Part shown: positions 9,511 through 33,230 of the stretch, one piece after another
Layout of the letters: every line of letters begins with the position of its first letter
Position numbering within the stretch: position 1 is the first letter of the stretch
From: Pyrinomonadaceae bacterium
Lineage (GTDB): Bacteria > Acidobacteriota > Blastocatellia > Pyrinomonadales > Pyrinomonadaceae
Direction: 5' to 3'
DNA: 64,000 nucleotides
Assembly: GCA_013811945.1 (NCBI GenBank)
Contig: JACCUI010000255.1
Location: forward strand, 1-64,000
Program-made: the position numbers and the translations under genes
Notes under the pieces: generated by a model
Database searches by the model: none
The model's input: the letters and a program-made list of their open reading frames with translations, nothing else
What the model was told of the DNA's origin: nothing

Positions 9511-9558
9511 ATTTTCCTCCCAAATCAGACCGCACAAGATTGGAGCACAAGAAAAAAG

Positions 9559-9649
9559 TGATCCACGAAGACACACGAAACTGCACGAAATAAAGACCAC
9601 GAATTTCGTGTGTGTAGCTTCGTGTCGTTTCGTGTAATTTTGTGGATCA
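9559..9649. repeat. Palindromic repeat family R1, copy a
   Basis: Imperfect inverted repeat. The left arm begins TGATCCACGAAGACACACGA, the right arm ends TTTCGTGTAATTTTGTGGATCA. Each arm is made of quasi-tandem words (CACGAA, CACACGAAA, CACGAAAT). It sits about 50 bases upstream of the RpiR start, probably in its leader. Other copies lie at 13754, 17311, 28769, 44296 and 59188. Confidence 0.85.
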
Positions 9650-9762
9650 TGTTTTCCCGTCTGTCCCGATCTCATCAGTTTCGATTTAGCCTGACTGTGC
9701 CGGTTTTTACTCCGGCTAAGCCTTTCATTTGATCAACTCAACAGTCTCGTGAGTGCGACAAA

Positions 9763-16900: not shown

Positions 16901-17270
16901 CGAGTCCGCTGGCTCGGGCGGGGACGCGTTGCCGTTCTACTTTCGCTTGCGAAAAGTTGGGCCGCTGGTAGGTACGCGCACCTGGGGAGGACTCGTCGGC
17001 ACTCTCGGTGTCCCGGCGACAATCGATGGCGGTGGCATCACGGCGCCCATCCTCGCGTTCTATAACCTTAAAGGTGAATGGGATGTCGAGAACATTGGCG
17101 TGGCGCCCGACATCGAGGTGGAATATACGCCGGCCGAGGTGATTAAGGGCCACGATCCGCAACTCGAACGGGCCGTAACCGAGGCAATGAAGTTACTTGA
17201 GCAGAATCCCGTGCGGCGAATGCCGAGGCCTGCACCAATCGACCGCGTTTCAAAGGGTCGAGAGAAATAG
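13932..17270 (+). CDS. Exported tricorn-like protease (S41 family)
   Basis: A 1112-residue protein with a signal peptide (IFAILLCLPLCSAVPAQ). A TolB/PD40-type beta-propeller region covers about residues 35-520, with repeated HFSPDGSQIAF, WSPDGAQLAWLSD and WSPDGTRIVLQD units. A low-complexity linker rich in Pro and Thr follows (about 550-590). The C-terminal half has a tricorn core, a PDZ-like stretch and an S41 catalytic domain: GHSYLTGEG (His near 772), INESAGSGGDALPFYF (nucleophile region, Ser 992/995), then GTRTWGGLVG and NIGVAPDIEVEYTP with the late acidic residue. Length and order fit tricorn protease (about 1070 residues), which cuts oligopeptides into short peptides. As an exported form it would feed the peptidases encoded next. 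Catalytic residues appear intact. Confidence 0.9.
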   Translation: MNLRKLSVNIRHLIFAILLCLPLCSAVPAQGTRLLRHPTVSRDLVAFSYAGDLWVVSRSGGESRRLTSTSGVETDPHFSPDGSQIAFTATVAGNTDVYVVPTSGGDPKRLTYHPGVDRVRSWTPDGRRVVLATGRTSAPHQAYFRLWSLGLEGGLPEPLLMPRAFKGAYSPDGRRIAYEEFSTAFIPAWYETSQWRHYRGGRTHPIRIMTLADYSVEMVPWSNSNDTDPMWIGNTVYFLSDRNHTVNLFSYRLDTKQLTQLTRHDDFDVMNASAGSDAIVYEHAGYVYLVDTKTGQAQRLNIDVKGDLPWALPQFKKVVSMIRNAALSPGGVRAAFEARGEIFTVPAEKGDYRNLTQSSGAHDRSPTWSPDGAQLAWLSDASGEYQLMLGEPTGVTTPRAIPLPSSAFFSEPAWSPDGTRIVLQDNHQNLWTIEVASGTATKIDTDNYPDPMRDFDAAWSPDSRWVTYSKNLANHLRAIFVYSLAEKKTHQITDGLADSISPTFDAGGKYLYFLTSTDFGPSTGWLEMSSLDRPVRRAIYLAVLSAAEASPLLPETGDEPQPAPRAATSEEPKPQPTATPATPTKVTVRIDPSGIGQRILAVNVPAGDYSSLLAGPPETFFYTEPIAASRSGGGPPSLRLQRYQLKERTAAPFLEGIRSYTLSADKKKLLYQASAGGGTSWGIVAAERPAKVGDGPINVAQLEMRVDPRAEWQQIYRETWRIQREYFYDPKMHGNDWQAIYEKYRPLLAYVGHRIDLGYLIAMVGGELTVGHSYLTGEGDMPREDPVSVGLLGADLAVENGRYRIKRIYTGENWNPDLRAPLSAPGIQVAEGDYLLEVNGRSLVPPTSLYSIFEGTAGRQTLIRVNKTPSLEGSRLVTVVPVPSEEGLRTRAWIEENRRLVDKLSGGRLAYVWLPNTGGPGYTAFTRYYYAQQDKEGAIIDERYNQGGMVADYIVNEMDRKLMGYFAMRHGQPTTSPIAGIYGPKVMIINESAGSGGDALPFYFRLRKVGPLVGTRTWGGLVGTLGVPATIDGGGITAPILAFYNLKGEWDVENIGVAPDIEVEYTPAEVIKGHDPQLERAVTEAMKLLEQNPVRRMPRPAPIDRVSKGREK

Positions 17271-17310
17271 ATTCCTAGTTCTGCATGGTGCCGCTCCGAA
17301 TGCTGAAGAC

Positions 17311-17387
17311 GATCCACGAAATCACACGAAACCACACGAAATCGACACTAAGAGAATTTCGTGTTCGTTCGTGTGATTTCGTGGATC
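17311..17387. repeat. Palindromic repeat family R1, copy c
   Basis: The most regular copy. The left arm starts GATCCACGAAATCACACGAA, the right arm ends TGTGATTTCGTGGATC. It fills the gap before the CocE-like gene and stays open in that gene's frame, which tempts gene finders to extend the protein into it. Confidence 0.9.
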
Positions 17388-17395
17388 AAATAGTT

Positions 17396-19243
17396 TTGCT
17401 CAAACCCAGCTCAAAATTTTGGGCTGCGCTTGTCCTACTCGTTAGCCTGGCAACCTTCGCGCCCATCCATGCGCAGCAATCGGATTCGCTCCTCACCCAC
17501 AAAGACGCCATGATCCCGATGCGCGACGGCGTGCGACTCTACACCCAGGTGTACACGCCGACTCAGGCCGCCGAACGACTCCCGATCCTGCTACTCCGGA
17601 CTCCATACGGAATCGGCGAGTTAAGCTCGGCGCAACTGACGGCCGCGCTCCCGGAACTAACGGCAGACGGTTATGTCATCGTCCGCCAGGACATCCGTGG
17701 GAGGTTCAAGTCGGAAGGGCAGTTCGTCATGCTCCGACAACCGCGCGACCCAAAAGATAAGCAGGCGATTGATGAAAGCACCGACACCTACGACACCATC
17801 GAGTGGCTCCTCAAGCAAGTGCCAAACCACAATGGGCGCGTCGGGATGGCCGGCACGAGCTACGGCGCCTGGCTGACCGTAATGGGAATGCTTGATCCAC
17901 ACCCGGCGCTGCAGGCCGTGGTCCCGCAAGCCTCTCCGGCCGATATGTGGATGGGAGACGACTTCCACCACAACGGTGCGTTCCGGTTGAGCTACGGCTT
18001 CGAATACACGTACATGATGGAATCGTCGAAGGAAATTTCTGACGTCTCCTCCGTCATCGATCGCTACGACGCCTACGAGTGGTATTTGGACCTCGGGCCG
18101 TTATCGAACGTCAATGCAAAGTACTTCAACGGTCGACTCCCCACCTGGAACGACTTCGTGAACCACCCTGACTACGACGCGTTCTGGAAGCGGCAGGGCT
18201 TCGCTCCGTGGCTGACTCGCGTAACAGTGCCCACGCTAAACGTGGCGGGATGGTGGGATCAAGAAGATTTTTATGGCCCGATCAAGATCTATGAATTGCT
18301 TGAACGGCACGATTCGGCGAACAAGAACTTCCTCGTCGTCGGTCCATGGAACCACGGCGGATGGTCCAGAGGCGATGGCCAAAAGCTGGGACGCATTGAC
18401 TTTGGGAGTGCGACTGCGCAGCACTATCGGCGGAATATACTGGCGCGGTTCCTGGCTTATCACCTGAAGGGAAAGGCCAGTCCGGACCTCCCCGAGGCTC
18501 TGACATTCAGGACTGGAGCTAACGAGTGGGTAAGACACGACGCCTGGCCGCCGAAACGCAATATCGTCGGGCGAAAGCTCTTCTTCCAGAAGGACAGAAA
18601 GCTCTCGTTTGAACCGCCACCAGTGAAGGACCAGCCAGAATTCGACAGCTACATTTCAGATCCCGCGAACCCGGTTCCCTATCGTCCGCGACCAATTGAG
18701 CTGAAGTCGGGATGGTCGACGTGGTTGGTCGAGGACCAGCGCTTCGTCGACCATCGCCCCGACGTACTCACCTGGGCGACCGACCCGCTTAGGGATGATG
18801 TCATCGTTTCGGGGCAGATCGTGGCTAACCTATTCGCTTCTACCACGGGCACCGACAGCGACTGGATCGTGAAGCTCATCGACGTGTACCCGGAGAAGTA
18901 CGCTAGCGATCCGAAGATGGGCGGCTACCAACTCATGATCGCGGGTGACGTTTTCCGTGGTCGTTACCTCAAGAGCTTTGAAAAGCCCGCGCCAATCGCG
19001 CCCAATACAGTGCTGCACTACCAGATCGGATTCCCGGCCAACGACCACGTCTTTAAGAAGGGACATCGGATCATGGTGCAGGTCCAGAGCAGTTGGTTTC
19101 CCGTGATTGATCGCAACCCACAACGTTTCGTGGCGAACATCTTCCTCGCGAAAGAGTCGGATTTTCAGCGGGCGACTCAGCAAGTGTTTCGCTCGGGCCA
19201 GTATGCGTCATTCATCGAGGTGCCAGTAGTGGAGACGAAGTGA
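17396..19243 (+). CDS. CocE/NonD-family hydrolase (X-Pro dipeptidyl-peptidase-like)
   Basis: An exported 615-residue alpha/beta hydrolase. The nucleophile elbow is GTSYGAW (Ser 155), the acid is probably in WWDQEDFYGP and the base in GPWNHGGW. A C-terminal jelly-roll domain as in CocE and S15 peptidases ends the protein. The family cleaves X-Pro dipeptides, glutaryl-7-ACA or ester substrates. I start at TTG 17396 because it yields a clean signal peptide (MLKPSSKFWAALVLLVSLAT, cut near IHA-QQ). Earlier ATG and GTG codons from 17285 would translate the R1 repeat ahead of the signal peptide; none has a good ribosome-binding site, so the start is uncertain. It follows the tricorn-like gene and fits extracellular peptide breakdown. 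Confidence 0.85.
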   Translation: MLKPSSKFWAALVLLVSLATFAPIHAQQSDSLLTHKDAMIPMRDGVRLYTQVYTPTQAAERLPILLLRTPYGIGELSSAQLTAALPELTADGYVIVRQDIRGRFKSEGQFVMLRQPRDPKDKQAIDESTDTYDTIEWLLKQVPNHNGRVGMAGTSYGAWLTVMGMLDPHPALQAVVPQASPADMWMGDDFHHNGAFRLSYGFEYTYMMESSKEISDVSSVIDRYDAYEWYLDLGPLSNVNAKYFNGRLPTWNDFVNHPDYDAFWKRQGFAPWLTRVTVPTLNVAGWWDQEDFYGPIKIYELLERHDSANKNFLVVGPWNHGGWSRGDGQKLGRIDFGSATAQHYRRNILARFLAYHLKGKASPDLPEALTFRTGANEWVRHDAWPPKRNIVGRKLFFQKDRKLSFEPPPVKDQPEFDSYISDPANPVPYRPRPIELKSGWSTWLVEDQRFVDHRPDVLTWATDPLRDDVIVSGQIVANLFASTTGTDSDWIVKLIDVYPEKYASDPKMGGYQLMIAGDVFRGRYLKSFEKPAPIAPNTVLHYQIGFPANDHVFKKGHRIMVQVQSSWFPVIDRNPQRFVANIFLAKESDFQRATQQVFRSGQYASFIEVPVVETK

Positions 19244-19378: not shown

Positions 19379-21019
19379 ATGAATAATCTCCGCCGCACCT
19401 TTACCTGCACAGTCATTTGCCTGCTCGCGTTGAGCGTCGTGCCAGCGCCGGCGCAAGACGGCGCGCCTGTTTATGACATCGTAATCCGCAATGGCCGCGT
19501 GCTTGATGGCGCGGGAAATCCCTGGATTTTGGCGGATGTTGCGATTAAGAACGGTCGCTTTGTCCGCATCGGTAGAGTCGAAGGCAAAGGCAAACGCGAG
19601 ATTGACGCGAGCGGCAAGTATGTCACGCCCGGATGGATTGATGTGATGGATCAATCAGGCGGCGTGCTTCCGCACAACGGGCTGGCCGAAAACAAATTGC
19701 TGATGGGCGTCACGACCGCCATCGGTGGCGAAGGCGGAACGCCCGTCCCGGCGGAGAAGATCACCGACTATTTTGCCGGTCTTGAGAAGACCGGCATCAG
19801 TATCAACTTCGGTACCTACTTCAGCGAAACACAAGCCCGCTTAGCCGTGCTTGGCGAAGCGTCGAGAGCACCGACGCCCGAAGAGCTCGCGCGCATGAAA
19901 GCCATCATGGAGACCGCCATGAAAGCGGGCGCGATGGGCATGACCACAGCGCTGATCTATCCGCCATCGAGTTACGCCACGACCAACGAGTTGATCGAGA
20001 TGGCGAAAGTCGCCGGGCGTTACGGCGGCATCTACGCCAGCCATATCCGTGGCGAAGGAAAGGAGCTCATCCAGTCAATTGAAGAAGCGATTACCATTGG
20101 TGAGAAAGGGGGATTGCCCGTCGAGGTTTTCCACCTCAAAGCCGCTTACCAACCAGGCTGGGGCACGCTCATGCGACGGGCGGGGAGCACAATCGAGCAG
20201 GCGCGTGCACGCGGTGTAGATGTCGCGGCGGACATGTACCTCTACACGGCGGGCGGCACCGGACTGGAGGCCGTGATCCCGTCCTGGGCCTTCGAGGGCG
20301 GGACCGATAAACTTCAGACCCGTCTCACAGATCCCGCGACCCGCAGGCGGCTCAAGAAAGAGATGGCTTCAGGCTCACCCGGCTGGTGGAACATCGTCGA
20401 AGCGGCGGGCGGTTGGAACGGCATCGTAGTGGTCAATGCGCAAAACGAAAAGAACGCGCGCTTTGAAGGTAAGAGCCTGACCAGGATCGCGAAAGAGTGG
20501 CGCAAGACGCCGGCGGATGCGGCGTTCGACCTGGTTATGCAAGGCAACGGAAGAGTGCTGGCGCTTTTTCACATGATGAGCGAGCAGGACATCGTCACCG
20601 CGCTCAAGTTTCCGTGGACGAGCATCGGCAGCGACGCGGCAGCAGCACTTAAGCCGGGGGACGTTGACGCATTAGGATTGGCGCACCCTCGCAGCTACGG
20701 AAATTTTCCCCGCCTCATCGCCCGCTTCGTTCGCGAGCAGCGCGTGCTCGCGCTGGAAGAGGCGATCCGCAAAATGACCTCGTGGCCCGCGACCCGGATG
20801 CGTCTCGCCTTACGCGGACTGATTAAAGAGGGCTGTTGGGGCGACGTCGTCATCTTCGATTACGACAAAATTCAGGACCGCGCGACCTACGAGCAGCCGC
20901 TTCTTTCTCCCGAAGGGATTGAATACGTGCTCGTGAATGGACAAGTCGTGATCGAACACGGAAAGCACACCGGCGTGCGCTCCGGACAGGTGCTTTATGG
21001 TCCGGGTCGCAAGCCTTAG
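19379..21019 (+). CDS. N-acyl-D-amino-acid deacylase-like amidohydrolase
   Basis: An exported 546-residue amidohydrolase-superfamily protein with a signal peptide (VICLLALSVVPAPAQ). DIVIRNGRVLDGAGNPW and a beta-sandwich open it, and the family motif YVTPGWID marks the barrel entry (81-88). Where D-aminoacylases have HxH after this motif, the sequence reads VMDQSGG, so both N-terminal metal His are absent. The usual Cys ligand position is in GGEGGTP (Glu 118). His 222 (ASHIRGEG), His 252 (EVFHLKAA) and the catalytic Asp 419 (IGSDAAA) remain. A relic one-metal or altered active site is likely. D-aminoacylase homologues cut N-acyl-D-amino acids and D-peptides. The gene follows the CocE-like gene and precedes a serine hydrolase. 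Confidence 0.85.
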   Translation: MNNLRRTFTCTVICLLALSVVPAPAQDGAPVYDIVIRNGRVLDGAGNPWILADVAIKNGRFVRIGRVEGKGKREIDASGKYVTPGWIDVMDQSGGVLPHNGLAENKLLMGVTTAIGGEGGTPVPAEKITDYFAGLEKTGISINFGTYFSETQARLAVLGEASRAPTPEELARMKAIMETAMKAGAMGMTTALIYPPSSYATTNELIEMAKVAGRYGGIYASHIRGEGKELIQSIEEAITIGEKGGLPVEVFHLKAAYQPGWGTLMRRAGSTIEQARARGVDVAADMYLYTAGGTGLEAVIPSWAFEGGTDKLQTRLTDPATRRRLKKEMASGSPGWWNIVEAAGGWNGIVVVNAQNEKNARFEGKSLTRIAKEWRKTPADAAFDLVMQGNGRVLALFHMMSEQDIVTALKFPWTSIGSDAAAALKPGDVDALGLAHPRSYGNFPRLIARFVREQRVLALEEAIRKMTSWPATRMRLALRGLIKEGCWGDVVIFDYDKIQDRATYEQPLLSPEGIEYVLVNGQVVIEHGKHTGVRSGQVLYGPGRKP

Positions 21020-21181: not shown

Positions 21182-21254
21182 TCACTCCAAACGGAGTGAA
21201 AAATCCCGGTCGAACCCTTTTTCTTTCGAGGCATTGAGTCGCCATTTTTTGAAG

Positions 21255-22994
21255 ATGAAGCAAAATAGAAACCAAGTAACCCGGCGCGAGATGCTCAAAC
21301 GAACCTTGGCAGCAGGCGCGGCGACGCTCTCGAGTAGGTTTTTCGTCATCGAGTCAACCGGCATAACTCAAAATGCGAAGGCGAACGCGAAGCACAAAGA
21401 TGTGTTTGAAGCGTTAGACGGCTTCGTCAAGCAATACATGCTGGAGATGAATTCGCCCGGTATGACGGTGGTGCTGGCAAACCGGGACGGGGTGTTACGC
21501 GCCGCAACTTACGGTTTCAGCGATCTCGAGCGAAGGCTGAACGTCAAGCCGGAGCAACTTTTTCACATCGGCTCAATCAGCAAGTCATTCACCGCCCTCG
21601 CGCTTCTGCAACTACGCGAAGAAGGTATGCTGGATTTGCATAAACCCATTGTCGAATACCTGCCGTGGCTGAAGATCGAGACGCAGTACGCGCCCATTAC
21701 TCCGCATCATCTGCTTACGCATTCCGCGGGGTTACCAGGCAATGTGCCGATCTTTCTTTCCGACCCGGCGGCGAAGCACAAAACAGCCTTCGCTCCCGGC
21801 GAGCACTTCCATTATTGCAACTTGGGCTATGACATTTTGGGCCGCCTGTTGAGCATCCTCGATCGCCGGCCCTACGGCGAGTCCATGCGCAAACGCATCC
21901 TGGAGCCGCTCGATATGAGTGCCACCGAGCCTGCCATTAACAGTGACATCCGCGACCGCACGGCGCGCAACTACATGATCTATCATGACGAGCGCCCGCA
22001 CTCGCGCTACGGGAAACTCGCCGAGGCTCCTCAACTCATCTTTGAGAAGGGATCGGGCAGCATCGCCTCCACCGCGCGCGATATGGGTCTGTACGTCAAC
22101 ATGCTCGCGAATCGCGGCAGAACTCCGAAGGGGCGCGTACTCTCGGAAAAGAGTTTCAGCCTGTTCGCCAAAACACACATTAAGGCCAAAGACTTCGGGC
22201 CGACCGCCAGCTACGGCTACGGTCTGGCCATCGACGAGTTAGACGGGCATACCGTCGCGCGCCACACCGGCGGCATGGTCTCATTCATGTCAGCAATGCA
22301 GGTTGACTTGGACGAAGGCGTCGGCGCTTTCGCTTCCATCAACGCGATGCAGGGTTACCGCCCAAACCCGGTTGTGGTCTACGCTCTGAAAGTGATGCGC
22401 GCCGCGAACGCAACTCAAGCGATTCCTCCTCTGCCGCCACCTAATCCGCCGGGCAAAATCGAGATGGCCGAAGAATACGCCGGCGTATTCACATCTCCCG
22501 ACGGCAGGAAGCTGGAGTTCATTGCCGAGGGCGGCAGACTCTTTCTGATCCACAAAGGACAGCGTCTGCAATTGGAAACCACGACCGGCAACGGTTTTCT
22601 GGCACAGCACCCTGATCTCGACCGCTTCCTCATCAGTTTCGCACGTAACAAAGGTGAGAAGGGCAAGATCACGGAGGTTTCGCACGGAGCCGATTGGTAC
22701 GTTAATCATCAATACGCCGGCCCGCGAGACTTCACCCGCTCCAAGGAGTTGGACGCATTCATAGGACATTACCGAAACGACAGCCCCTGGATCGGCAGCC
22801 TCCGGGTAGTGCAGCGTAAAGGCAGGCTCTGGCTGGATGGCGACTTGCCGCTCGATCCCGTGACCGTTAACACTTTCAAGCTGGCTGATTCGCCTTACAA
22901 CCCTGAGTGGATAAGCTTCTTAGATGTGGTGAAAGGTAAATCCATGCACCTGAAGCTCTCGGGCGAGGACTACTGGCGCGTGGAAGCGAAGTGA
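21255..22994 (+). CDS. Tat-exported serine hydrolase (class-C beta-lactamase/DD-peptidase fold)
   Basis: A 579-residue protein with a twin-arginine signal (TRREMLKRTLAAGAATLSS). The penicillin-binding fold carries SISK (Ser 107-Lys 110), YCN (187-189) as the YxN motif, and ARHTGGM in place of KTG. A small beta-barrel domain typical of the family follows. Such enzymes act as D-aminopeptidases, DD-carboxypeptidases or esterases; this locus suggests D-amino-acid peptides. ATG 21255 is preferred to an upstream TTG because the Tat motif then falls near the N-terminus, as in the dipeptidase homologue at 27557. The stop overlaps the GTG start of the GNAT gene in a GTGA junction, so the two are co-translated. 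Confidence 0.9.
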   Translation: MKQNRNQVTRREMLKRTLAAGAATLSSRFFVIESTGITQNAKANAKHKDVFEALDGFVKQYMLEMNSPGMTVVLANRDGVLRAATYGFSDLERRLNVKPEQLFHIGSISKSFTALALLQLREEGMLDLHKPIVEYLPWLKIETQYAPITPHHLLTHSAGLPGNVPIFLSDPAAKHKTAFAPGEHFHYCNLGYDILGRLLSILDRRPYGESMRKRILEPLDMSATEPAINSDIRDRTARNYMIYHDERPHSRYGKLAEAPQLIFEKGSGSIASTARDMGLYVNMLANRGRTPKGRVLSEKSFSLFAKTHIKAKDFGPTASYGYGLAIDELDGHTVARHTGGMVSFMSAMQVDLDEGVGAFASINAMQGYRPNPVVVYALKVMRAANATQAIPPLPPPNPPGKIEMAEEYAGVFTSPDGRKLEFIAEGGRLFLIHKGQRLQLETTTGNGFLAQHPDLDRFLISFARNKGEKGKITEVSHGADWYVNHQYAGPRDFTRSKELDAFIGHYRNDSPWIGSLRVVQRKGRLWLDGDLPLDPVTVNTFKLADSPYNPEWISFLDVVKGKSMHLKLSGEDYWRVEAK

Positions 22995-23926
22995 ACGTCT
23001 TCAACAAAGAGAGTGTTCATCTACAACCGCTATCACAGCTTTTCACTGAACCTCAAGAGATGCCACCGATGGCTGCCTTAACTGAAACATCAAGCATCGT
23101 CATCCGCGACATTGACGGGGGAGCGGAGATGCGCGCCGTCGAAGAACTCCAGCAGGAAGTGTGGGGGCTACCTGATCTCGATATCGTACCGCTGACGCAA
23201 CTCGTCGCCGCCAAAGCGGCGGGCGGCGTTTTGCTCGGCGCGTTCGACCACGAGACTTTAATCGGTTTCGCTTATGGTTTCGTTAGTTACGAAAACGGAG
23301 AGATGGCGCATCATTCGCACATGCTCGCCGTCAAGCCCGCTTATCGCAACTTCAATCTCGGTCACAAGCTCAAGCTGGCGCAGCGCGAGCGCTTATTGGT
23401 GCAGGGCATCACCATGATGACATGGACATTTGATCCGTTGCAGAGCTTGAATGCATATTTCAACTTCAACAAACTAGGGGTAGTCTCGGATCGCTATCTC
23501 ATCAACTTCTATGGCGACGACGCCGCTAGTTTTCTGCTTCGCAACGGCACTGATCGCCTATGGGTCACGTGGCTACTCACGAGCCGCCGTGTGCATGAGC
23601 GACTCGACAAGACAGGTTTCAAGCTGGAATTCGAGCGTGTCATCCCGCTGGTCCAGCTCGGGATAGATGACTCGCCGAGCAGGAACAATCTGCCCGAAGG
23701 ACTATCACACGAGCAGGCTTTGATAGAGATACCAGCGGACATTAACGCCCTGGAGCGGCAAAGTAGCGAATTGGCATTCGAATGGCGGGACGCCACGCGC
23801 TGGGCTTTTAACGAGGCAATTGCTGCGGGCTATCTAGTCGTGGATTTCTCTCGACAGAGTCGAGGCGACCAGCGCTTCGGAATATATCTTCTCAGCCGTG
23901 GAAAAAGGCTTGGTGATTTCGTCTGA
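22991..23926 (+). CDS. Large GNAT-family acyltransferase, possible D-amino-acid N-acyltransferase
   Basis: A 311-residue protein whose GNAT domain lies at about residues 35-200: IRDIDGGAEMRAVEELQQEV, then LLGAFDHETLIGFAYGFVSY, and the acyl-CoA loop region MLAVKPAYRNFNLGHKLK. A family-specific C-terminal extension follows (about 200-310). It resembles the uncharacterised GNAT proteins of about 270-310 residues (COG3375 type) that neighbour N-succinylamino-acid racemase genes in other phyla. A GNAT enzyme N-succinylates D-amino acids in the Geobacillus pathway. The racemase lies 2.4 kb downstream here. The GTG start overlaps the upstream stop by four bases, with in-frame ATGs 69 and 78 bases later as alternatives. 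Substrate is inference. Confidence 0.8.
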   Translation: MNVFNKESVHLQPLSQLFTEPQEMPPMAALTETSSIVIRDIDGGAEMRAVEELQQEVWGLPDLDIVPLTQLVAAKAAGGVLLGAFDHETLIGFAYGFVSYENGEMAHHSHMLAVKPAYRNFNLGHKLKLAQRERLLVQGITMMTWTFDPLQSLNAYFNFNKLGVVSDRYLINFYGDDAASFLLRNGTDRLWVTWLLTSRRVHERLDKTGFKLEFERVIPLVQLGIDDSPSRNNLPEGLSHEQALIEIPADINALERQSSELAFEWRDATRWAFNEAIAAGYLVVDFSRQSRGDQRFGIYLLSRGKRLGDFV

Positions 23927-23985
23927 TAAAAGAAGCGTTGGATTGCTTCGTTGATTTCAACAACATCTTTAACCAGACTAAGCCT

Positions 23986-24090
23986 GTGACTGACGCAAGT
24001 GATCAAATCGAAACAAGAGATCACGAGATTAGAGCGCGAGTGGATTGAGGCTATCAGGCGACAGCATGCCACCGCTTTAGCACTATTGAA
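23986..24090 (+). pseudogene. Possible N-terminal remnant of a DUF4440/SnoaL-like gene
   Basis: A GTG at 23986 opens VTDASDQIETRD. A one-frame shift gives RLEREWIEAIRRQHATALA, a typical DUF4440 opening helix, which then stops. A second open piece in another frame (EIFKAELPSKLITQ to about 24225) is not recognised and runs into the next gene. The 276-base gap holds nothing else. Weak call. Confidence 0.35.
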
Positions 24091-24202
24091 ATATTCAAGG
24101 CCGAGCTCCCATCCAAGCTGATCACGCAGGCGGCTCGTAAAATGAGCGTTCAGCGTGTGGAAGAGATGAAGCATTTTCTTAAAATGCTGGAAACGGAAAC
24201 TT

Positions 24203-24694
24203 ATGGGAAGAAAACAATTTAGGATCAAGAGTGCTACCGCAGAAGATGTCCCTCTGATCCTCTCTTTCATTAGAAAATTGGCTGAGTATGAACTCTTGTC
24301 TCACGCTGTTGTTGCTACTGAAGACGTGCTCAGAGATGAGTTGTTCGGCGAGCATCCCGCGGCTGAGGCGATCATCGGCTATTTGCCAGAGGAGCCGGTG
24401 AGCTTTGCCATCTTCTTCCACAACTTCTCGACATTTGTCGGCAGGAGAGGTCTATATCTGGAGGACTTGTATGTGAATCCAGAAGTGAGAGGCAAAGGCA
24501 TCGGTCGCGAGATGTTGGTCTATCTTGCAGGATTAGCGAAGGAGCGTGGTTGCGGCAAGATGGAATGGGCAGTGTTAGATTGGAATGAGAGTGCGATCAG
24601 GTTCTATAGGAATTTAGGTGCGATTCCAATGAAGGAGTGGACAGGCTTTAGAGTCTCAGGTGAAGCGCTAGAGCGTTTAGCAGGGGAGGGTTAG
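24203..24694 (+). CDS. GNAT-family N-acetyltransferase, SSAT-like
   Basis: A 163-residue single-domain GNAT protein. It has FRIKSATAEDVPLILSFIRK, strand 4 with LYLEDLYVNPEVRGKGIG (the acetyl-CoA pyrophosphate loop, RGKGIG) and WAVLDWNESAIRFYRNLGA at the C-terminus. The pattern is that of diamine/spermidine acetyltransferase-like GNATs, which acylate primary amines. Its place between a serine hydrolase and the racemase would also suit acylation of amino acids. GGAAAC lies before the ATG. It is a different subfamily from the GNAT gene at 22991. The amine substrate is not predictable from sequence alone. Confidence 0.88.
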   Translation: MGRKQFRIKSATAEDVPLILSFIRKLAEYELLSHAVVATEDVLRDELFGEHPAAEAIIGYLPEEPVSFAIFFHNFSTFVGRRGLYLEDLYVNPEVRGKGIGREMLVYLAGLAKERGCGKMEWAVLDWNESAIRFYRNLGAIPMKEWTGFRVSGEALERLAGEG

Positions 24695-24749
24695 GTTTTT
24701 GGTATGGTCTGGATCAGTCCTTGCAGGATTGAGAAATCCGAAGGTTATC

Positions 24750-26321
24750 ATGAAGCTACAGCGAAACATTTGGCTAGTCACACTTGTGCTGATAACTCTA
24801 ACGAATGGACAACTCGCCCGCGCACAGGAAGCGCCGATCAGCGGATTTGACGATTACGTGAACAGAACACTGCGCGATTGGAAGGTGCCGGGCCTCGCCA
24901 TCGCCATTATCAAGGGTGATCAAATCGAGCTGGCGAAAGGGTACGGGGTAAGAAAGCTCGGCGACCCTACGCCCGTCAACGAGCGTACTCTTTTCGCCAT
25001 CGGCTCGACCTCGAAGGCGTTTCCCGCCGCTTTGATCGCGATGCTCGTGGATGAAGGCAAACTCAAGTGGGATGACCCGGCGACGAGATATCTTCCGGGC
25101 TTTGAGATGTACGACCCATACGTCACCCGCGAGTTGACGGTGCGCGACCTGCTGTCACACCGGAGCGGGCAGGAGGGCGGCGACTTCCTCTGGTACGGCA
25201 CCGAGTACGACCGCGACGAAGTCCTGCGCCGTGCACGTCACCTCAAGCCAACCAGGAGCCTGCGGAGCAGATTCGGCTACCAAAACGTGATGTATCTGGC
25301 AGCCGGCCAGATCATCGCCAAGGTGAGCGGCAAGAGCTGGGATGAGTTCATCCGCCAGCGCATCTTCGCTCCGTTGGACATGACTGCCAGCAACACGAGT
25401 ATTAGAGATTTAACAAAATCCGACAATGTCGCATCGCCTCATGCTGAAATTGACGACCAGGTGAAAGTGGTTCCTTGGCGCAGTCTTGACAACATCGCTC
25501 CCGCTGGCTCGATCAATTCAAATGTCGTGGATGTCGCTCAGTGGGTGCGGCTGCAACTCGGGCAAGGGACTTATCAGAATCGGCGCCTGATCAGCCCTGG
25601 CGCTATTAAAGAGATGCAGACGTCGCAGACCGTGATGCGTGCTGAGTCGCCTTTTTCGCTGTGGTATCCCGAAATTCATTTCGTGAATTACGGGCTTGGC
25701 TGGTTCTTGTCGGATTATCGAGGCCGCAAGGTTGTCGAGCACGTCGGAGCCATCGACGGCATGAGGGCGCAGGTTGCGTTGATTCCCGAAGAAAAACTTG
25801 GCCTCGTCATCCTGGCCAATCGGGGCGGCTCAACGCTGCCGGCGGCTCTTACGTACAAAATCTTCGACGCCTACCTCGGCGCACCGCCACGCGATTGGAG
25901 CGCGGAGATGTTGAAAACCGAGAAGTCATTGGTGGAGCAAAACGAGGCGGCGGAGAAAAAGCTGGAGGCCGAGCGAGTCAAAAATACTAAGCCGACGCAC
26001 ACGCTGGAGAAGTACGCTGGGACGTACCAGAACGACCTATACGGCGAAGTGAAGGTGACGCATGAGAACGGCAAGCTGAATTTGCGTTTCGGCTCGGCTT
26101 TCACCGGCGAATTGGAGCACTGGCACTACAACACCTTCCGAGCGCTTTTTTCCCCCAACGCTTTCGACGCGAATGCTTACGCCACGTTCTCGCTGAATCC
26201 TCAGGGCAGAATGGAAAACGTGACGTTGAATCTAATGCCGGGCTACCCGTTCAAGCGAGTTCCCGAACCGGCAGCCGCCGGCGTGGGTTCCCTGAGCGAA
26301 GAAGAACTCTGGAATCATTGA
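24750..26321 (+). CDS. Exported serine hydrolase, C-terminally shortened paralogue
   Basis: A 523-residue class-C beta-lactamase-fold protein with a signal peptide (WLVTLVLITLTNGQLARA). The nucleophile motif is STSK (Ser 86-Lys 89), the second motif YQN, and the third reads EHVGAID, with Val where the paralogue has Gly. By eye it is very close over its whole length to the gene at 28954. It stops at SEEELWNH, where the paralogue continues for about 80 residues with another small barrel segment. The loss of that segment and the HVG variant suggest a duplicated copy under relaxed selection. The ATG at 24750 follows GAAGGT. Its stop is 11 bases before the racemase start, so the two are likely co-transcribed. 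Confidence 0.88.
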   Translation: MKLQRNIWLVTLVLITLTNGQLARAQEAPISGFDDYVNRTLRDWKVPGLAIAIIKGDQIELAKGYGVRKLGDPTPVNERTLFAIGSTSKAFPAALIAMLVDEGKLKWDDPATRYLPGFEMYDPYVTRELTVRDLLSHRSGQEGGDFLWYGTEYDRDEVLRRARHLKPTRSLRSRFGYQNVMYLAAGQIIAKVSGKSWDEFIRQRIFAPLDMTASNTSIRDLTKSDNVASPHAEIDDQVKVVPWRSLDNIAPAGSINSNVVDVAQWVRLQLGQGTYQNRRLISPGAIKEMQTSQTVMRAESPFSLWYPEIHFVNYGLGWFLSDYRGRKVVEHVGAIDGMRAQVALIPEEKLGLVILANRGGSTLPAALTYKIFDAYLGAPPRDWSAEMLKTEKSLVEQNEAAEKKLEAERVKNTKPTHTLEKYAGTYQNDLYGEVKVTHENGKLNLRFGSAFTGELEHWHYNTFRALFSPNAFDANAYATFSLNPQGRMENVTLNLMPGYPFKRVPEPAAAGVGSLSEEELWNH

Positions 26322-26332
26322 AGGTGGAGGAG

Positions 26333-27460
26333 ATGAGACTACAACTAGAGAGAATCGAACTCAGGGAGATCGAGCTGCCGCTCAAGTCTCCGTTCGAGAC
26401 TAGCTTCGGTCGCACCACGCGGCGTCGAATCCTTATCGTCAGAGCGGTCGACAAAACAGGTGATTGCGGTTACGGCGAATGCGTAGCCCCAGAAGGTCCT
26501 TTCTACAATCACGAAACCGTCGACACGGCGTGGCTGATCACTGCCAAGTATGTCGCGCCGATTTTGGCCCGAGCCCGTGTCGAAACTGCAAGCGAAGTCA
26601 ACGCCGCACTCGCACCAATTCGCGGCAACCGGATGGCTAAGGCCGGCGTTGAGGCGGCGGTTTGGGACCTGGAAGCGAAACTCGCGGGCCGCCCGCTCTG
26701 GCAGCATCTCGGAGGCATACGGGATGAGATCGCTTGTGGGGTTTCTATTGGTTTACAGGAAACGGTGGAAGCGTTAATCGATAAAGTCACTAACGAACTG
26801 GAGTCCGGCTATCAGAGGATTAAGATCAAGATCAAACCGGGAAAAGATGTTCAGTTAGTTGAAGCAATTCGTTCTCGATTCCCTTCGATTACTCTCTCTG
26901 TTGATGCAAATTCCGCCTATTCTCTTAATGGGGATTTAAGTGTAGTTAGGCAGCTTGATCAGTATAACCTTTTGATGATCGAACAGCCGCTGGCACCCGG
27001 TGACCTTGTTGATCACGCAAAATTGCAGCGAGAAATCAAGACACCAATCTGTCTCGATGAGTCAATCGTCAGCCTTGCTGATGCGCGTCACGCTTTTGAA
27101 TTAGGCTCATGCCGGATCATTAACATTAAGCTCGGACGCGTCGGGGGCCACACAGAAGTTCGACTGATTCAAGCATACGCGGTTGAGCACGGCATACCCG
27201 TATGGTGCGGCGGCATGCTCGAAGCGGGGATAGGGCGGGCGCACAACATCGCCTTGTCGACGCTGCCCGGCTTCACCCTACCCGGGGATGTCTCGGCCTC
27301 GGCGCGCTACTGGGAAGAGGACATCATCGAGCCGCCGGTCACTGTGAGCCGAAAAGGCACGATTAAAGCGCCAACAGGTCACGGCATCGGCTATGAAGTT
27401 AATGAAGCTCGCATCGAGGCCCTGACGGTCCGGAGGGAGACCGTTCATCTGACTTCTTAA
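26333..27460 (+). CDS. N-acylamino-acid racemase / o-succinylbenzoate-synthase-type enzyme
   Basis: A 375-residue enolase-superfamily enzyme of the muconate-lactonising subgroup, OSBS/NSAR family. Catalytic pieces are visible: the KxK motif in IKIKIKPG (Lys 164/166), metal ligands Asp 191 (SVDANSAY), Glu 217 (MIEQPL) and Asp 242 (CLDESI), and Lys 266 (NIKLGRVGG). The signature WCGGMLEAGIGRAHNIAL is diagnostic of the family. Enzymes of this family dehydrate SHCHC in menaquinone synthesis, racemise N-succinyl or N-acyl amino acids, or do both. With no other men genes here but with GNAT and D-aminoacylase-like neighbours, racemisation is the better guess. The start at 26333 follows AAGGTGGAGG. 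L-Ala-D/L-Glu epimerase is less likely given the signature. Confidence 0.85.
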   Translation: MRLQLERIELREIELPLKSPFETSFGRTTRRRILIVRAVDKTGDCGYGECVAPEGPFYNHETVDTAWLITAKYVAPILARARVETASEVNAALAPIRGNRMAKAGVEAAVWDLEAKLAGRPLWQHLGGIRDEIACGVSIGLQETVEALIDKVTNELESGYQRIKIKIKPGKDVQLVEAIRSRFPSITLSVDANSAYSLNGDLSVVRQLDQYNLLMIEQPLAPGDLVDHAKLQREIKTPICLDESIVSLADARHAFELGSCRIINIKLGRVGGHTEVRLIQAYAVEHGIPVWCGGMLEAGIGRAHNIALSTLPGFTLPGDVSASARYWEEDIIEPPVTVSRKGTIKAPTGHGIGYEVNEARIEALTVRRETVHLTS

Positions 27461-27556
27461 TCAACGTCAGAGGCAGACGGTAGACAGACCTGACGAGAAA
27501 AGACCAGGGCTCAATCGTTGAAAGTCATGGACGACGTCCAAGATCAATCTTTACCT

Positions 27557-28729
27557 ATGAAGCAAGAAAGAAACCCTATAACACGGCGCGAAATACTCAA
27601 GCGAGTGGCGGTCGCCAGCGTGGGCGCGCTCGCCGCGCCGATGTTTAATCGCGGGCGTTACCGGATTGCTGCCGGTTCTTTGACCGAATACTCGGCGCGG
27701 GCGATCGATCTAGTTAATCGCTCCACCGTCATAGACATGCTCAGCATACTGACGCTTGACTTTTCCACGCAGGCGAGGTGGATGGCAGACCCTGAAAGTT
27801 TTACGGCAACCGACCTCCAGCCATACAAAGATTCAGGCATCAACATCATTCATCCCGCGATTGGATTGGGCGGGCCGGAGGCTCACCAGCAGGCAATAAA
27901 GTTCTTCGCATCGTGGAATGGATTTATCGCCAACGCCGACGAAAACTTCATGCGCGTGGATAGCACGGCAGACTTAAACCGGGTGAAAAAATCAGGCAAG
28001 ATCGGCATTCTGCTCGGCCTGCAAAATTCAGATCAGTTCCGCGGGCCCGAAGACGTTGACTTTTTCCGCGGACTCGGACAGCGGGTCTCGCAACTCACTT
28101 ACAATTCGCGCAATCTCATCGGCAACGGCTCGACCGAGCGGCGCGACGACGGCATTTCAGACTTCGGCGTAGCAATCATCGAGCGCATGAACAAGGTCGG
28201 AATGGCCGTTGACGTATCACACTGCGGCGACCGCACCACCCTCGACGCCTTCGAGATTTCTAAAAAGCCCGTGCTGATTACACACTCCAACTGCCGTGCG
28301 CTCGTGCCGGGCCACCCCCGTTTGAAGACCGACGAAGCGATCAAGAGGGTGGGCGCGGCCGGGAGCGTCATGGGAATCACAGGCGTGCGGATGTTTGTTA
28401 AAGGAGATGAGCCCACAACCATCGAGCATGTGCTGGATCATTTCGATCACGTGACAAAGCTGATTGGACCAGAGCATCTGGGTGTCGGCAGCGACATGGA
28501 CCTTCGCGGGTACGACGCGATGCCGCCGGAGCTTAACAAGAGACTGCGCGCCAGTTACAAGGGGAGCTATGGCTTTCGAGAGAAGATTGATATTGAAGGT
28601 CTGAATCATCCAAGGCGCATGTTTGATCTGACCGAAGGGCTGATCCGCCGGAAATATAGCGGCAAGGACATTGAATTGATCCTTGGCGGAAACTTCAAGC
28701 GGGCGCTCGCTCAGATTTGGACGGTCTAA
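27557..28729 (+). CDS. Tat-exported M19 (renal dipeptidase-like) homologue lacking half of the metal site
   Basis: A 390-residue protein with a Tat signal (ITRREILKRVAVASVGAL). The M19 barrel is recognisable: VDVSHCGDRTTLDAFEIS (His 222), VLITHSNCRAL (His 243) and LGVGSDMDLRG (Asp 313). However, the DGHNDL-type HxD is replaced by VIDMLSIL (about 59-66), and the bridging Glu by Gln 156 (GLQNSDQF). A binuclear zinc site as in renal dipeptidase cannot form in the usual way. M19 enzymes accept a D-residue at the second position of dipeptides, which suits this locus, but here the activity may be lost or changed. The start at 27557 was chosen by comparison with the Tat leader at 21255; no clear ribosome-binding site. 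Confidence 0.85.
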   Translation: MKQERNPITRREILKRVAVASVGALAAPMFNRGRYRIAAGSLTEYSARAIDLVNRSTVIDMLSILTLDFSTQARWMADPESFTATDLQPYKDSGINIIHPAIGLGGPEAHQQAIKFFASWNGFIANADENFMRVDSTADLNRVKKSGKIGILLGLQNSDQFRGPEDVDFFRGLGQRVSQLTYNSRNLIGNGSTERRDDGISDFGVAIIERMNKVGMAVDVSHCGDRTTLDAFEISKKPVLITHSNCRALVPGHPRLKTDEAIKRVGAAGSVMGITGVRMFVKGDEPTTIEHVLDHFDHVTKLIGPEHLGVGSDMDLRGYDAMPPELNKRLRASYKGSYGFREKIDIEGLNHPRRMFDLTEGLIRRKYSGKDIELILGGNFKRALAQIWTV

Positions 28730-28953: not shown

Positions 28954-30774
28954 ATGAAACTACGTCGACACATCTGGCTGATCGGCCTTTTGCTTGCAAC
29001 TCTGACAAGCGGACAGTTTGCTCACGCCCAAGAAGCGCCGCTCGGCGGGTTTGACGATTATGTGAACAAGTCCATTCGCGAATGGGAAGTGCCGGGCCTC
29101 GCCATCGCAATAATCAAGGATGATCGAATTGTGCTTGCGAGAGGTTACGGGGTGAGAAAGCTCGGCGATCCGAGATCGGTTGACGAGCGCACGCTGTTTG
29201 CTATTGGCTCGTCCTCAAAGGCTTTTACCGCCGCTGCGGTCGCCATGCTCGTCGATGATGGCAAACTCAAGTGGGATGATCCGGCGACGAAGTATCTTCC
29301 GGGCTTTGAGACGTTCGACCCGCACGTAACACGCGAACTGTCTGTGCGCGACCTGCTGTCGCACCGCAGCGGGCTGGAACGCGGCGACTTTCTGTGGTAC
29401 GGCACTGAGTACGACCGCGACGAAATTCTCCGTCGCACCCGTTTTCTTAAACCAACATGGAGTCTGCGAAGCACATTCGGCTATCAAAACCTCATGTTTT
29501 TGGCGGCCGGGCAGGTCGTCGCTAAGCTACACGGCAAGAGTTGGGATGAATTCATTCGGCAACGCATCTTCTCACCTCTCGGCATGACTTCGAGCAGCAC
29601 TAGCATCAGGGACTTCAAAAACGCGGACAACGTAGCGACGCCTCACGCCAAGATCGAAAACAAAGTCGAATCTATCCCGTGGCGCAACATTGACAACATC
29701 GCTCCCGCCGGCTCGATCAACTCAAACGTTCTGGAAATGGCGCAGTGGATACGGCTGCAATTAGGCGATGGCGTCTATCAGAAACAACGACTGCTCAGTT
29801 CCGGCGCCGTCAAAGAGATGCACACGCCTCAGACTATCATCCGGCTCCAGGGTCCGATGGAGTTGCTCTATCCTGAAGCCCATTTTCTGTCTTACGGATT
29901 GGGCTGGTTCCTGAGTGACCACCGAGGCCGGAAAGTTGTTGAACACGGCGGCGCCATCGACGGGATGAGGGCGCAGGTGGCAATGATCCCTGAGGAGAAA
30001 CTCGGCGTAATCATCCTCACAAACCTGCACGGCACGCCGCTGCCTCATGCTTTGATGTACAAGGTCTTCGATGCTTACCTGGGCGCACCGCGACAGCGCG
30101 ACTGGAGCGCGGAATTGCTAAAGACGATTAAGGCCCTTGAGGGGCAAGGCAAGGAGGCGGAAAAAAAGCTGGAGGCGGAGCGGGTCAAAGACACCAGAGC
30201 CTCGCTCGCGCTGGAGAAGTACGTGGGAACGTACAAGAACGACTTATACGGCGACGTTAAGGTGACGAACGAGAACGACAAACTGAAATTGAGTTTCGGC
30301 TCTGCTTTCTCTAGTGGTTTGGAGCATTGGCACTACGATACCTTCCGAGCAAAGTTCGTCGCTGCCGGAGTCACCAAAGCTTATGTGTCGTTCGCTCTAA
30401 ACGCGCAGGGCAAGACAGAAACTGTGACGTTAAATCTGCCGGGCGTGGCGGACTATCCGTTCAAACGAGCGCCCGAATCGGCAGACGCCGCCGCCGTTTC
30501 CATGAGCGAAGAGGAACTGAAGAAATTCGCTGGTAAGTACGAATCAAAGACCCCGCCGATAGAGGTAAGCCTCGAACTGGTCGGCGGTAAGCTGAAGGCG
30601 GTCGTGCCGGGCCAGCCCGTCTATGATCTCGTGCCGGTCGCCCCATCGCGCTTTCGCATCGGGGGGGCGCCCGATGGCTTTTTCATTCAGTTCGAAATGG
30701 CCGAAGCCAAGCCGAAGAGCTTAACTTTTTTGCAAGGCTCAGGACCAAGCCTCGTATTGCTGCCCAAGCAGTAA
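28954..30774 (+). CDS. Exported serine hydrolase with two C-terminal beta domains
   Basis: A 606-residue class-C beta-lactamase-fold protein with a signal peptide (IWLIGLLLATLTSGQFAHA). SSSK (Ser 86-Lys 89), YQN and EHGGAID (HGG as third motif) form an apparently complete active site. Two lipocalin-like segments follow (YVGTYKNDLYGDVKV and FAGKYESKTPPIEVSLEL). It is the complete counterpart of the gene at 24750. A GGAGG site lies seven bases before the ATG. In this family, members act as D-aminopeptidases or D-amino-acid amidases, and others as esterases; the locus favours peptides containing D-residues. The two copies bracket the racemase and dipeptidase genes. Confidence 0.9.
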   Translation: MKLRRHIWLIGLLLATLTSGQFAHAQEAPLGGFDDYVNKSIREWEVPGLAIAIIKDDRIVLARGYGVRKLGDPRSVDERTLFAIGSSSKAFTAAAVAMLVDDGKLKWDDPATKYLPGFETFDPHVTRELSVRDLLSHRSGLERGDFLWYGTEYDRDEILRRTRFLKPTWSLRSTFGYQNLMFLAAGQVVAKLHGKSWDEFIRQRIFSPLGMTSSSTSIRDFKNADNVATPHAKIENKVESIPWRNIDNIAPAGSINSNVLEMAQWIRLQLGDGVYQKQRLLSSGAVKEMHTPQTIIRLQGPMELLYPEAHFLSYGLGWFLSDHRGRKVVEHGGAIDGMRAQVAMIPEEKLGVIILTNLHGTPLPHALMYKVFDAYLGAPRQRDWSAELLKTIKALEGQGKEAEKKLEAERVKDTRASLALEKYVGTYKNDLYGDVKVTNENDKLKLSFGSAFSSGLEHWHYDTFRAKFVAAGVTKAYVSFALNAQGKTETVTLNLPGVADYPFKRAPESADAAAVSMSEEELKKFAGKYESKTPPIEVSLELVGGKLKAVVPGQPVYDLVPVAPSRFRIGGAPDGFFIQFEMAEAKPKSLTFLQGSGPSLVLLPKQ

Positions 30775-31056: not shown

Positions 31057-33027
31057 GTGAGAAAATTGATGCCTTTGATGATGCTCGGTTTAATCCTTTT
31101 CTCGTCCGTGTGGGGACAGGTTCCGAATTTGCCAACTACCCCGAACCGAGAAGGAAACGCGCAACTAACGGCGGACAAAACTCCTTCAGGTGTCCACGAG
31201 TTGACGGCTTTGGATGTGGAGGCTTTTCTCGATGGAATTGTGCCACTGCAACTTGAGCGAGATGACATTGCAGGCGCTACAGTCGCTATCGTCAAGGATG
31301 GAAAGCTGTTGTTCGCTAAGGGGTATGGTTACTCCGATTACGAAAAGAAAAAGACCGTCTCGGCCGATGAGACACTGTTTCGACCTGGCTCGGTGTCCAA
31401 GCTGTTCACTTGGACGGCGATGATGCAGTTGGCTGAACAAGGCAAGCTCGACCTTGACCGCAACGTGAACGATTACCTTGATTTCAAGATTCCCGATGCC
31501 TTCGGGCAGCCCGTCACGCTTAAGAACTTACTGACTCATACTCCCGGATTTGAGGAGCAAATTAAAGACCTGTTTACGATCGGTTCCGAAAGTCCCAATC
31601 TTGGGGGATATCTGAAGACCCACATTCCGAGGCGAATATATCCTCCTGGGACAGTGCCTGCTTACTCTAACTATGGGGCGGCGCTGGCCGGATATATCGT
31701 CGAGCTTGTTTCGGGCCGCCCCTTCCACGAATATGTCGAGGAGAATATTTTTAAACCCCTCGGCATGATTCATTCAACTTTTCGCCAACCTCTTCCGCCT
31801 GCTCTTGCTCCATTCATGTCTAATGGTTATCAACTGGCATCCGATGAACCGAAGCCGTTTGAAGTAGTAGTCCCTTTTCCAGCGGGAAGTATGAGCAGCA
31901 CTGCCGCCGACATGTCTCGCTTCATGCTCGCTCATCTGCAAGACGGGCAATTCGGCGACGCCCGGATACTGCGCCCAGAGACCGCGCGGCTCATGCACAG
32001 TCGCCTGTTCGCTTTAGACCAGGCGGCTAACGCGATGGCATATGGCTTCTACGAAGAATCAAGAAACGGGCACCGGATCATCGGCCATGCGGGAGACACC
32101 CTCTACTTCCATAGCGACCTGCACCTGATTCCAGACGCGGGCGTTGGATTTTTTGTGTCGCACAACAGTTTGGGGAGCGGAAACCCTCTGCCCCGAACGA
32201 CCCTGTGGGAGATGTTCCTGGATCGGTATTTTCCATACACCGCTCCAGCTACGCCGACGCTAGACAGTGCGAAAGAAGATGCCACAGCGGTAAGCGGCTC
32301 ATATATTTTAAGCCGCCGGAGCGAGACGTCATTTTTGAAGGCGGCAACATTGATTGGAGAGTTCACCGTCTCGCCGGTTGGGGACGGAATGATCGAGGTG
32401 GCTCAACTGACAGGCCCGAACGGAAAGCCCAAACGGTGGCGGGAAGTGGCCCCTATGACATTTCTCGAAACAAACGGGCGGGACAAACTCATATTCAAAC
32501 CAGACCAGAATGGTCGGATGCAGGTGATCTTGCCTTACCCGTTTTTCGTCGGTCAAAGAGTTGGACTATTCGAGAACAATAAGATTCTCTTACCAGTGAT
32601 TGGGATTTCGCTTCTGATCATGCTTCTGACTCTGGTTTTGTGGCCCCTCGCGTGGTTTGTGAGGAGACATCACGGCCACAAGCTGGAGTTGACACCAATT
32701 GAACGTCGCCTGCGGCTGGCAGTGCGGATCGTTTTTGCGTTGGTTCTATTTTTTATGGCGGCTATGACAGGTCTTGTTGTGTACGCCTCGACGCATATCT
32801 GGTTCCTCAGCGATCGCGGGAATACCTGGTTTCATCTTGCTCAGGTGATTGGCGTTCTCGGAGCGATTGGAACGCTGGTCGTATTCTATAACGCTATCCA
32901 GTCTTGGCGGAATCAGGAGAAGAGAATCTGGAGCAAGCTCCAAGCCACCCTCTTTGTGCTGGTGTGCTTCGGTTTCCTCTGGTTCGCCTTTGCGGGAAAT
33001 TTATTACGTTTCAGCTCGAATTATTGA
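31057..33027 (+). CDS. Membrane-anchored serine hydrolase
   Basis: A 656-residue protein with a signal peptide (MRKLMPLMMLGLILFSSVWG) and a class-C beta-lactamase-like domain: SVSK (Ser 112-Lys 115), YSN and GHAGDT. The C-terminus has four transmembrane helices (about residues 508-532, 550-575, 590-612 and 625-650), the form seen in FmtA/Pbp-like membrane serine hydrolases. It is distant from the three paralogues upstream. GTG 31057 follows AAAGGACACC. Probably acts on peptides or D-amino-acyl esters on the periplasmic side, by family analogy. The C-terminal helices are not required for catalysis in relatives and suggest tethering or coupling to transport. Confidence 0.9.
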   Translation: MRKLMPLMMLGLILFSSVWGQVPNLPTTPNREGNAQLTADKTPSGVHELTALDVEAFLDGIVPLQLERDDIAGATVAIVKDGKLLFAKGYGYSDYEKKKTVSADETLFRPGSVSKLFTWTAMMQLAEQGKLDLDRNVNDYLDFKIPDAFGQPVTLKNLLTHTPGFEEQIKDLFTIGSESPNLGGYLKTHIPRRIYPPGTVPAYSNYGAALAGYIVELVSGRPFHEYVEENIFKPLGMIHSTFRQPLPPALAPFMSNGYQLASDEPKPFEVVVPFPAGSMSSTAADMSRFMLAHLQDGQFGDARILRPETARLMHSRLFALDQAANAMAYGFYEESRNGHRIIGHAGDTLYFHSDLHLIPDAGVGFFVSHNSLGSGNPLPRTTLWEMFLDRYFPYTAPATPTLDSAKEDATAVSGSYILSRRSETSFLKAATLIGEFTVSPVGDGMIEVAQLTGPNGKPKRWREVAPMTFLETNGRDKLIFKPDQNGRMQVILPYPFFVGQRVGLFENNKILLPVIGISLLIMLLTLVLWPLAWFVRRHHGHKLELTPIERRLRLAVRIVFALVLFFMAAMTGLVVYASTHIWFLSDRGNTWFHLAQVIGVLGAIGTLVVFYNAIQSWRNQEKRIWSKLQATLFVLVCFGFLWFAFAGNLLRFSSNY

Positions 33028-33230
33028 GGCGGCGATTGTGAGTATGAGACCCAAGAAAGACCTCAGCGGATGAGCAGGACTTTTAATTGAGATGAGTTTA
33101 CAACTAGAGCGCAAGTTAAACATTCAGAGCGCGAGTGGGTCAGGACACCTCTTACTCCGATTCCTTCGGGGCGAGAATTCTTACCAGCGGAAGCCTTGAT
33201 TTAAAAAATCTTGAGAGGGGATCGGAGACA

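Follow-up and report, generated by a model that had tools for sequence, protein, structure and literature searches.

The stretch of DNA analysed here (64,000 nucleotides, positions 1 to 64,000 of contig JACCUI010000255.1 from the Pyrinomonadaceae bacterium assembly GCA_013811945.1; hereafter the window) probably encodes a known pathway for inverting D-amino acids to L-amino acids, in an accessory copy set within a locus of exported hydrolases and a TonB-dependent receptor and completed by an M20-family hydrolase supplied from another contig of the genome, C153. At its core are GNAT-A (22991–23926, + strand), a two-domain, COG3375-like putative D-amino acid N-succinyl/acyltransferase, and NSAR-A (26318–27460, +), a predicted N-succinyl(acyl)amino acid racemase of the enolase superfamily. 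An initial annotation had proposed that this pair acylates and racemizes D-amino acids as in Geobacillus but works without the usual desuccinylase, whose place an amidohydrolase encoded at 19379 could have taken. Linkage in Bacillales, trees, and active-site residues all point to a pair homologous to that of the Geobacillus type; the annotation had seen a real pathway, whose supposedly missing enzyme is encoded elsewhere rather than absent. The pathway itself is known; what is likely new is that Acidobacteriota have an accessory locus rich in hydrolase genes, whose likely partner is an M20 of a different branch. The N-succinyl D-to-L route has been known from few organisms. Here a single Acidobacteriota genome has its genes in two sets, which are also found across the family, and this offers a testable way in which soil bacteria might draw on the D-amino acids of cell walls and peptides.

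The racemase and the acyltransferase

NSAR-A scored 352.1 bits against TIGR01928 (curated cut-off, 200.65 bits), contains the WCGGMLEAGIGRAHN motif, and has N-acyl/N-succinylamino acid racemases as its closest solved relatives (2zc8, E = 2.3e-107; 1sja, E = 5e-102), in agreement with its initial description as an enolase-family racemase with the signature of N-succinylamino acid racemase (NSAR)/o-succinylbenzoate synthase (OSBS). The KxK lysines, metal ligands, and second catalytic lysine (K164, K166, D191, E217, D242, and K266, numbered from the ATG that begins MRLQ, five codons inside the listed open reading frame) are invariant. So is R269, in 72 of 72 alignment rows; this residue is equivalent to Amycolatopsis R266, a second-shell arginine that we take to be linked to racemase activity. 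Active-site residues are identical in NSAR-A, in NSAR-B (the racemase encoded on C153), and in the Bacillales NSARs, and the NSAR-A (12 rows) and NSAR-B (26 rows) sequences form sister clades in the tree. From its sequence, we infer that NSAR-A racemizes N-succinylamino acids.

Alternatively, the racemase could be the OSBS of menaquinone synthesis, as the name of TIGR01928 says. The match exceeds the cut-off for that model, and many NSAR-family enzymes retain OSBS activity. Even so, we regard this role as extremely improbable. MenD was found above cut-off in none of 13 genomes, in a search that did not extend to MenB, MenE, or MenF, and the MqnA/MqnD family of the futalosine route gave two matches in each of the 13; the OSBS name is therefore probably misleading here, and the role was rejected on this evidence. 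An OSBS completing a men pathway elsewhere in the genome, which the initial annotation had named as the outcome that would count against its proposal, is thus not what the genomes point to. The linkage of the racemase genes to GNAT and M20 genes and the number of NSAR-like genes, which reaches five in a genome, likewise argue against it. Because the Men pathway is not in use in these genomes, copies of the racemase that bear the annotation o-succinylbenzoate synthase have probably been given the wrong name.

The identification of the neighboring gene as a COG3375-like GNAT also held. Its Pfam Acetyltransf_1 match is weak (22.0 bits against a cut-off of 20.7), and a confident AlphaFold model built from 40 relatives (pLDDT, 89.2) has a first domain that matches GNAT structures with E values down to 1e-7, besides an extra C-terminal domain. 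The NSAR-linked GNATs of Bacillales are 27 to 38% identical to GNAT-A, with 17 invariant columns common to both, and in the tree GNAT-A, GNAT-B (a second type in the family), and the Bacillales GNATs form separate groups. A passage of PMC8762209 that cites Sakai et al. 2006 states that, on aromatic D-amino acids, the known pathway's GNAT uses acetyl- besides succinyl-CoA; since it takes both, the acyl group for GNAT-A may be succinyl or acetyl, and we infer that the enzyme acts in succinyl/acetyl-CoA:D-amino acid transfer.

The D-to-L pathway of Geobacillus kaustophilus consists of a GNAT succinyltransferase, an NSAR, and an L-desuccinylase (Sakai et al. 2006, as cited in PMC8762209). As a Bacillales control, we searched 101 genomes from the order of a Virgibacillus genome, of which 90 had an NSAR homologue. 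One of the GNATs described above lay within 1.5 kb of NSAR, immediately beside it, in 24 of 30 stretches, and 8 of 10 longer stretches had an M20D-like hydrolase in that cluster; at 6 of 10 loci, an RpiR gene stands ahead of the M20D-GNAT-NSAR genes, and a YkvI-like gene follows NSAR in two. Among the loci from the GNAT scan, those of Virgibacillus and Chloroflexi had no NSAR within the retrieved flanks. Like the Bacillales loci, the window has the homologous GNAT and NSAR genes in one cluster with an RpiR gene nearby. In contrast to the three-gene Geobacillus cluster, it has no M20 gene, and its GNAT and NSAR genes are surrounded by those for exported hydrolases and a TonB receptor. Within the family of the window genome, GNAT-A lies no more than 10 kb from NSAR in 10 of 15 genomes, a proximity with a probability of about 1e-19 under random placement, as roughly modelled with shared ancestry left out of account; chance association is excluded because the gene pair recurs in many genomes. 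D-to-L inversion by the putative GNAT and NSAR pair is well supported by this genomic context.

Sources of the final hydrolysis

As noted initially, no M20 gene was found in the window, either among its larger open reading frames (Pfam) or by tblastn with an M20 query. The genome-wide search that the initial annotation had called for returned ten M20 matches from the 67% complete genome, one of which, of 391 amino acids, lies on C153 only 24 bp from NSAR-B. The genome has three NSAR genes, namely, the window copy, a copy on C65 (89% identity), and the C153 copy (58% identity). M20 and NSAR-B are adjacent in 29 family genomes, including this one, with gaps of 12 to 232 bp; GNAT-B, on C20 in this genome and present in nearly every family genome, is unlinked to them. 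With GNAT-B, NSAR-B, and M20 existing besides GNAT-A and NSAR-A, the genome has a complete, dispersed set. The housekeeping pair of NSAR-B and M20 resembles NSAR-A in racemase family and has identical catalytic residues but differs from it in that NSAR-B belongs to a different clade and is directly paired with M20.

By sequence, the C153 enzyme is a member of the carboxypeptidase-G2-like branch of M20 (1cg2, E = 6.9e-38), unlike the M20D enzymes of Bacillales. It scored 50 bits against TIGR01891 (cut-off, 153.75), and the M20 of the related genome G002 scored 44 bits, both resembling PRK07473/PRK06133, whereas the M20 of one Bacillales cluster reached 297.7 bits. Because these scores differ, final hydrolysis is probably carried out by different M20 branches in Bacillales and Acidobacteriota, suggesting that two branches have come to serve as the final hydrolase.

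The relatives, which are metagenome-assembled genomes, indicate where such an M20 may have been. The window's neighbors recur with GNAT-A and NSAR genes in nine of them. In G002, genes for an M55 D-aminopeptidase, an aminotransferase, M20, GNAT-A, and RpiR stand together in a single run, and some 5 kb from it are those for NSAR-A and a YkvI-like transporter. M55 lies near GNAT-A in two relatives (L060, 3507–7824, − strand; L043, 1–1571), and in L043, a Chloracidobacterium locus, it stands just before GNAT-A. In G014 (L062, 5669–5960, −), an M20 remnant sits just upstream of NSAR-A and consists of the first 48 residues fused out of frame to the last 56, possibly through misassembly. The G002 gene and the G014 remnant suggest that M20 is part of the system and that the accessory cluster lost it or had it relocated, and further suggest that the C153 M20 is able to serve that cluster. 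The proposal of a pathway without a desuccinylase is therefore not supported, as an M20 gene adjoins another NSAR on C153 and relatives keep M20 or its remnant in the cluster.

The amidohydrolase (19379–21019, +) belongs, as predicted initially, to the D-aminoacylase family and has an altered active site. It shares its family and the His/His and Asp of the second site with D-aminoacylase and N-acyl-D-glutamate deacylase (1m7j and 3gip), retaining the equivalents of His220, His250, and Asp366 (YASHIR, VFHLKA, and IGSDA). In contrast to these solved relatives, it has no HxH, the stretch reading GWIDVMDQ, and the bridging cysteine (Cys96) is replaced by glutamate (GGEGG for GNCG). The altered site is conserved among relatives and is presumably similar to the one-metal site in E. 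coli NagA, a literature search on which gave nothing. Orthologues of at least 69% identity occur in 8 of 60 family genomes, and because seven of these eight have GNAT-A (Fisher P = 1e-4, uncorrected for relatedness), the amidohydrolase belongs to the locus.

That this enzyme is itself the desuccinylase of a pathway with no M20 of its own is, in our judgment, very unlikely. The idea could draw on the failure to find M20 in the window, on the conservation of the altered site, and on G002, the sole relative with an intact M20 beside GNAT-A, where the best amidohydrolase match is 44% identical and no close orthologue occurs. Judged by eye, however, the amidohydrolase and its full-length relatives have an N-terminal signal peptide, and GNAT-A and NSAR-A do not; because of this signal, the enzyme is more likely located outside the cytoplasm, upstream of the pathway, and is unlikely to meet a cytoplasmic N-succinyl-L-amino acid. 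Moreover, an M20 gene adjoins NSAR-B in the same genome and such a gene is also present in seven of the eight orthologue-bearing genomes, and the solved relatives act on D-substrates, an activity that would reverse the inversion. The signal peptide and the M20 gene led us to disfavor the amidohydrolase in the desuccinylase's place; a role as supplier of D-amino acids is more likely.

An amidohydrolase with the same HxH loss is encoded on C65, where the second NSAR-A copy (L049, 172–10775) follows genes for methylmalonyl-CoA-mutase-type large and small subunits and is itself followed by genes for an amino acid permease, a beta-lactamase-family protein, this amidohydrolase, and a CocE/NonD hydrolase.

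A proposed pathway and its alternatives

In the pathway we propose, the exported amidohydrolase, M19 enzyme, beta-lactamase-family hydrolases, tricorn-type S41 protease, and CocE/NonD hydrolase would act on peptides or N-acyl conjugates to free amino acids, D-forms among them. Inside the cytoplasm, GNAT-A would acylate a D-amino acid with succinyl-CoA (or acetyl-CoA), NSAR-A would racemize the N-acyl product, and the L-specific M20 encoded beside the housekeeping NSAR-B would deacylate it, pulling the equilibrium toward the L-amino acid, which could then be used by the aminotransferase. A single M20 would thereby be shared by both racemases.

Several points weigh against this account. The enzymatic steps, the succinyl group, the D-amino acid substrates, and the sharing of M20 are all deduced from homology and gene context. 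With an assembly 67% complete and 2.7% contaminated, the assignment of contigs C125 and C153 to one organism depends on binning; in the tree, the NSAR of C153 falls with the same genus that provides the best match to a glycosylase gene of the window. An M20 of the NSAR-B-linked type was not found in G058, which has GNAT-A. GNAT-A clusters are also patchy in distribution, which could possibly reflect horizontal transfer or another substrate for the accessory copy. Finally, the canonical GNAT acyl-CoA loop reads Q/R-x-x-G-x-G/A, and that of GNAT-A (RNFNLG, residues ~118 to 124) has asparagine for the first glycine. This position is N, D, H, or R in nearly all clade A GNATs, whereas GNAT-B and the Bacillales relatives mostly retain glycine, and use of the acyl donor may be altered in GNAT-A.

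The altered loop also bears on whether GNAT-A and NSAR-A, instead of serving general inversion, act on other N-acyl substrates; examples would be the salvage of N-acyl amino acids or the detoxification of D-amino acids or amines that the exported hydrolases set free. The separation of accessory and housekeeping copies into different clades and the usual position of M20 outside the GNAT-A cluster fit such a function as well. Since the active-site residues do not differ from those of the M20-linked clade and of Bacillales, and M55 D-aminopeptidase and M20 genes lie within the clusters of relatives, we consider it rather unlikely and retain D-to-L inversion as the probable function. A broader form of that interpretation is more tentative and somewhat short of even chances: the locus might be a dedicated Acidobacteriota system for using D-peptides and D-amino acids, with TonB uptake, several exported D-specific hydrolases, and cytoplasmic acylation, racemization, and deacylation, the carboxypeptidase-G2-like M20 replacing the M20D of Bacillales.

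Neighboring genes in the window

The locus spans 26 kb and combines exported hydrolase genes with those for a TonB-dependent receptor and an RpiR-type regulator, and GNAT-A and NSAR-A lie inside a run of same-strand genes (10383–34394, +). Divergent from the cluster is the RpiR-family regulator (8527–9675, −; HTH_6 and SIS domains by Pfam), whose homologues (51 to 86% identity) occur in the same cluster of nine loci of relatives. The run opens with the TonB-dependent receptor (10383–13634, +), which has a CarboxypepD_reg domain by Pfam and probably mediates outer membrane uptake (homologues of 61 to 76% in the clusters of six loci). It is followed by the tricorn-type S41 protease (13932–17270, +; PD40, PDZ, and S41 domains by Pfam; 66 to 82% in four loci) and the CocE/NonD (S15-type) hydrolase (17285–19243, +; TIGR00976, 273 bits against a cut-off of 66), with homologues of 81% in L061 and 82.5% on C65.

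Downstream of the amidohydrolase, Pfam and the sequence identify a serine hydrolase of the beta-lactamase/DD-peptidase family (PF00144) with a Tat-like signal (21234–22994, +), whose stop codon overlaps the start of GNAT-A by 4 bp. The interval from 22991 to 27460 singled out initially also holds, by Pfam, a small second GNAT (24203–24694, +; PF00583, 63.7 bits), situated between GNAT-A and the racemase, and a beta-lactamase-family serine hydrolase with DUF3471 (24699–26321, +). Beyond NSAR-A lies an M19 membrane-dipeptidase-family enzyme with a Tat-like signal (27518–28729, +; PF01244, 241 bits), with renal-type dipeptidases as PDB relatives and homologues of 73 to 91% in the clusters of relatives. 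Two further beta-lactamase-family serine hydrolases identified by Pfam, one with DUF3471 (28954–30774, +) and one with C-terminal hydrophobic segments (31057–33027, +), are conserved in the cluster. The class I/II aminotransferase (33135–34394, +; Pfam), a possible next step for the L-amino acid, has a homologue (70%) that adjoins M20 and GNAT-A in G002. Outside the run, the window contains an arylamine N-acetyltransferase-family gene (PF00797; 37382–38260, −) and, at 59581–61242, short broken matches to beta-lactamase-family genes that are possibly decayed copies.

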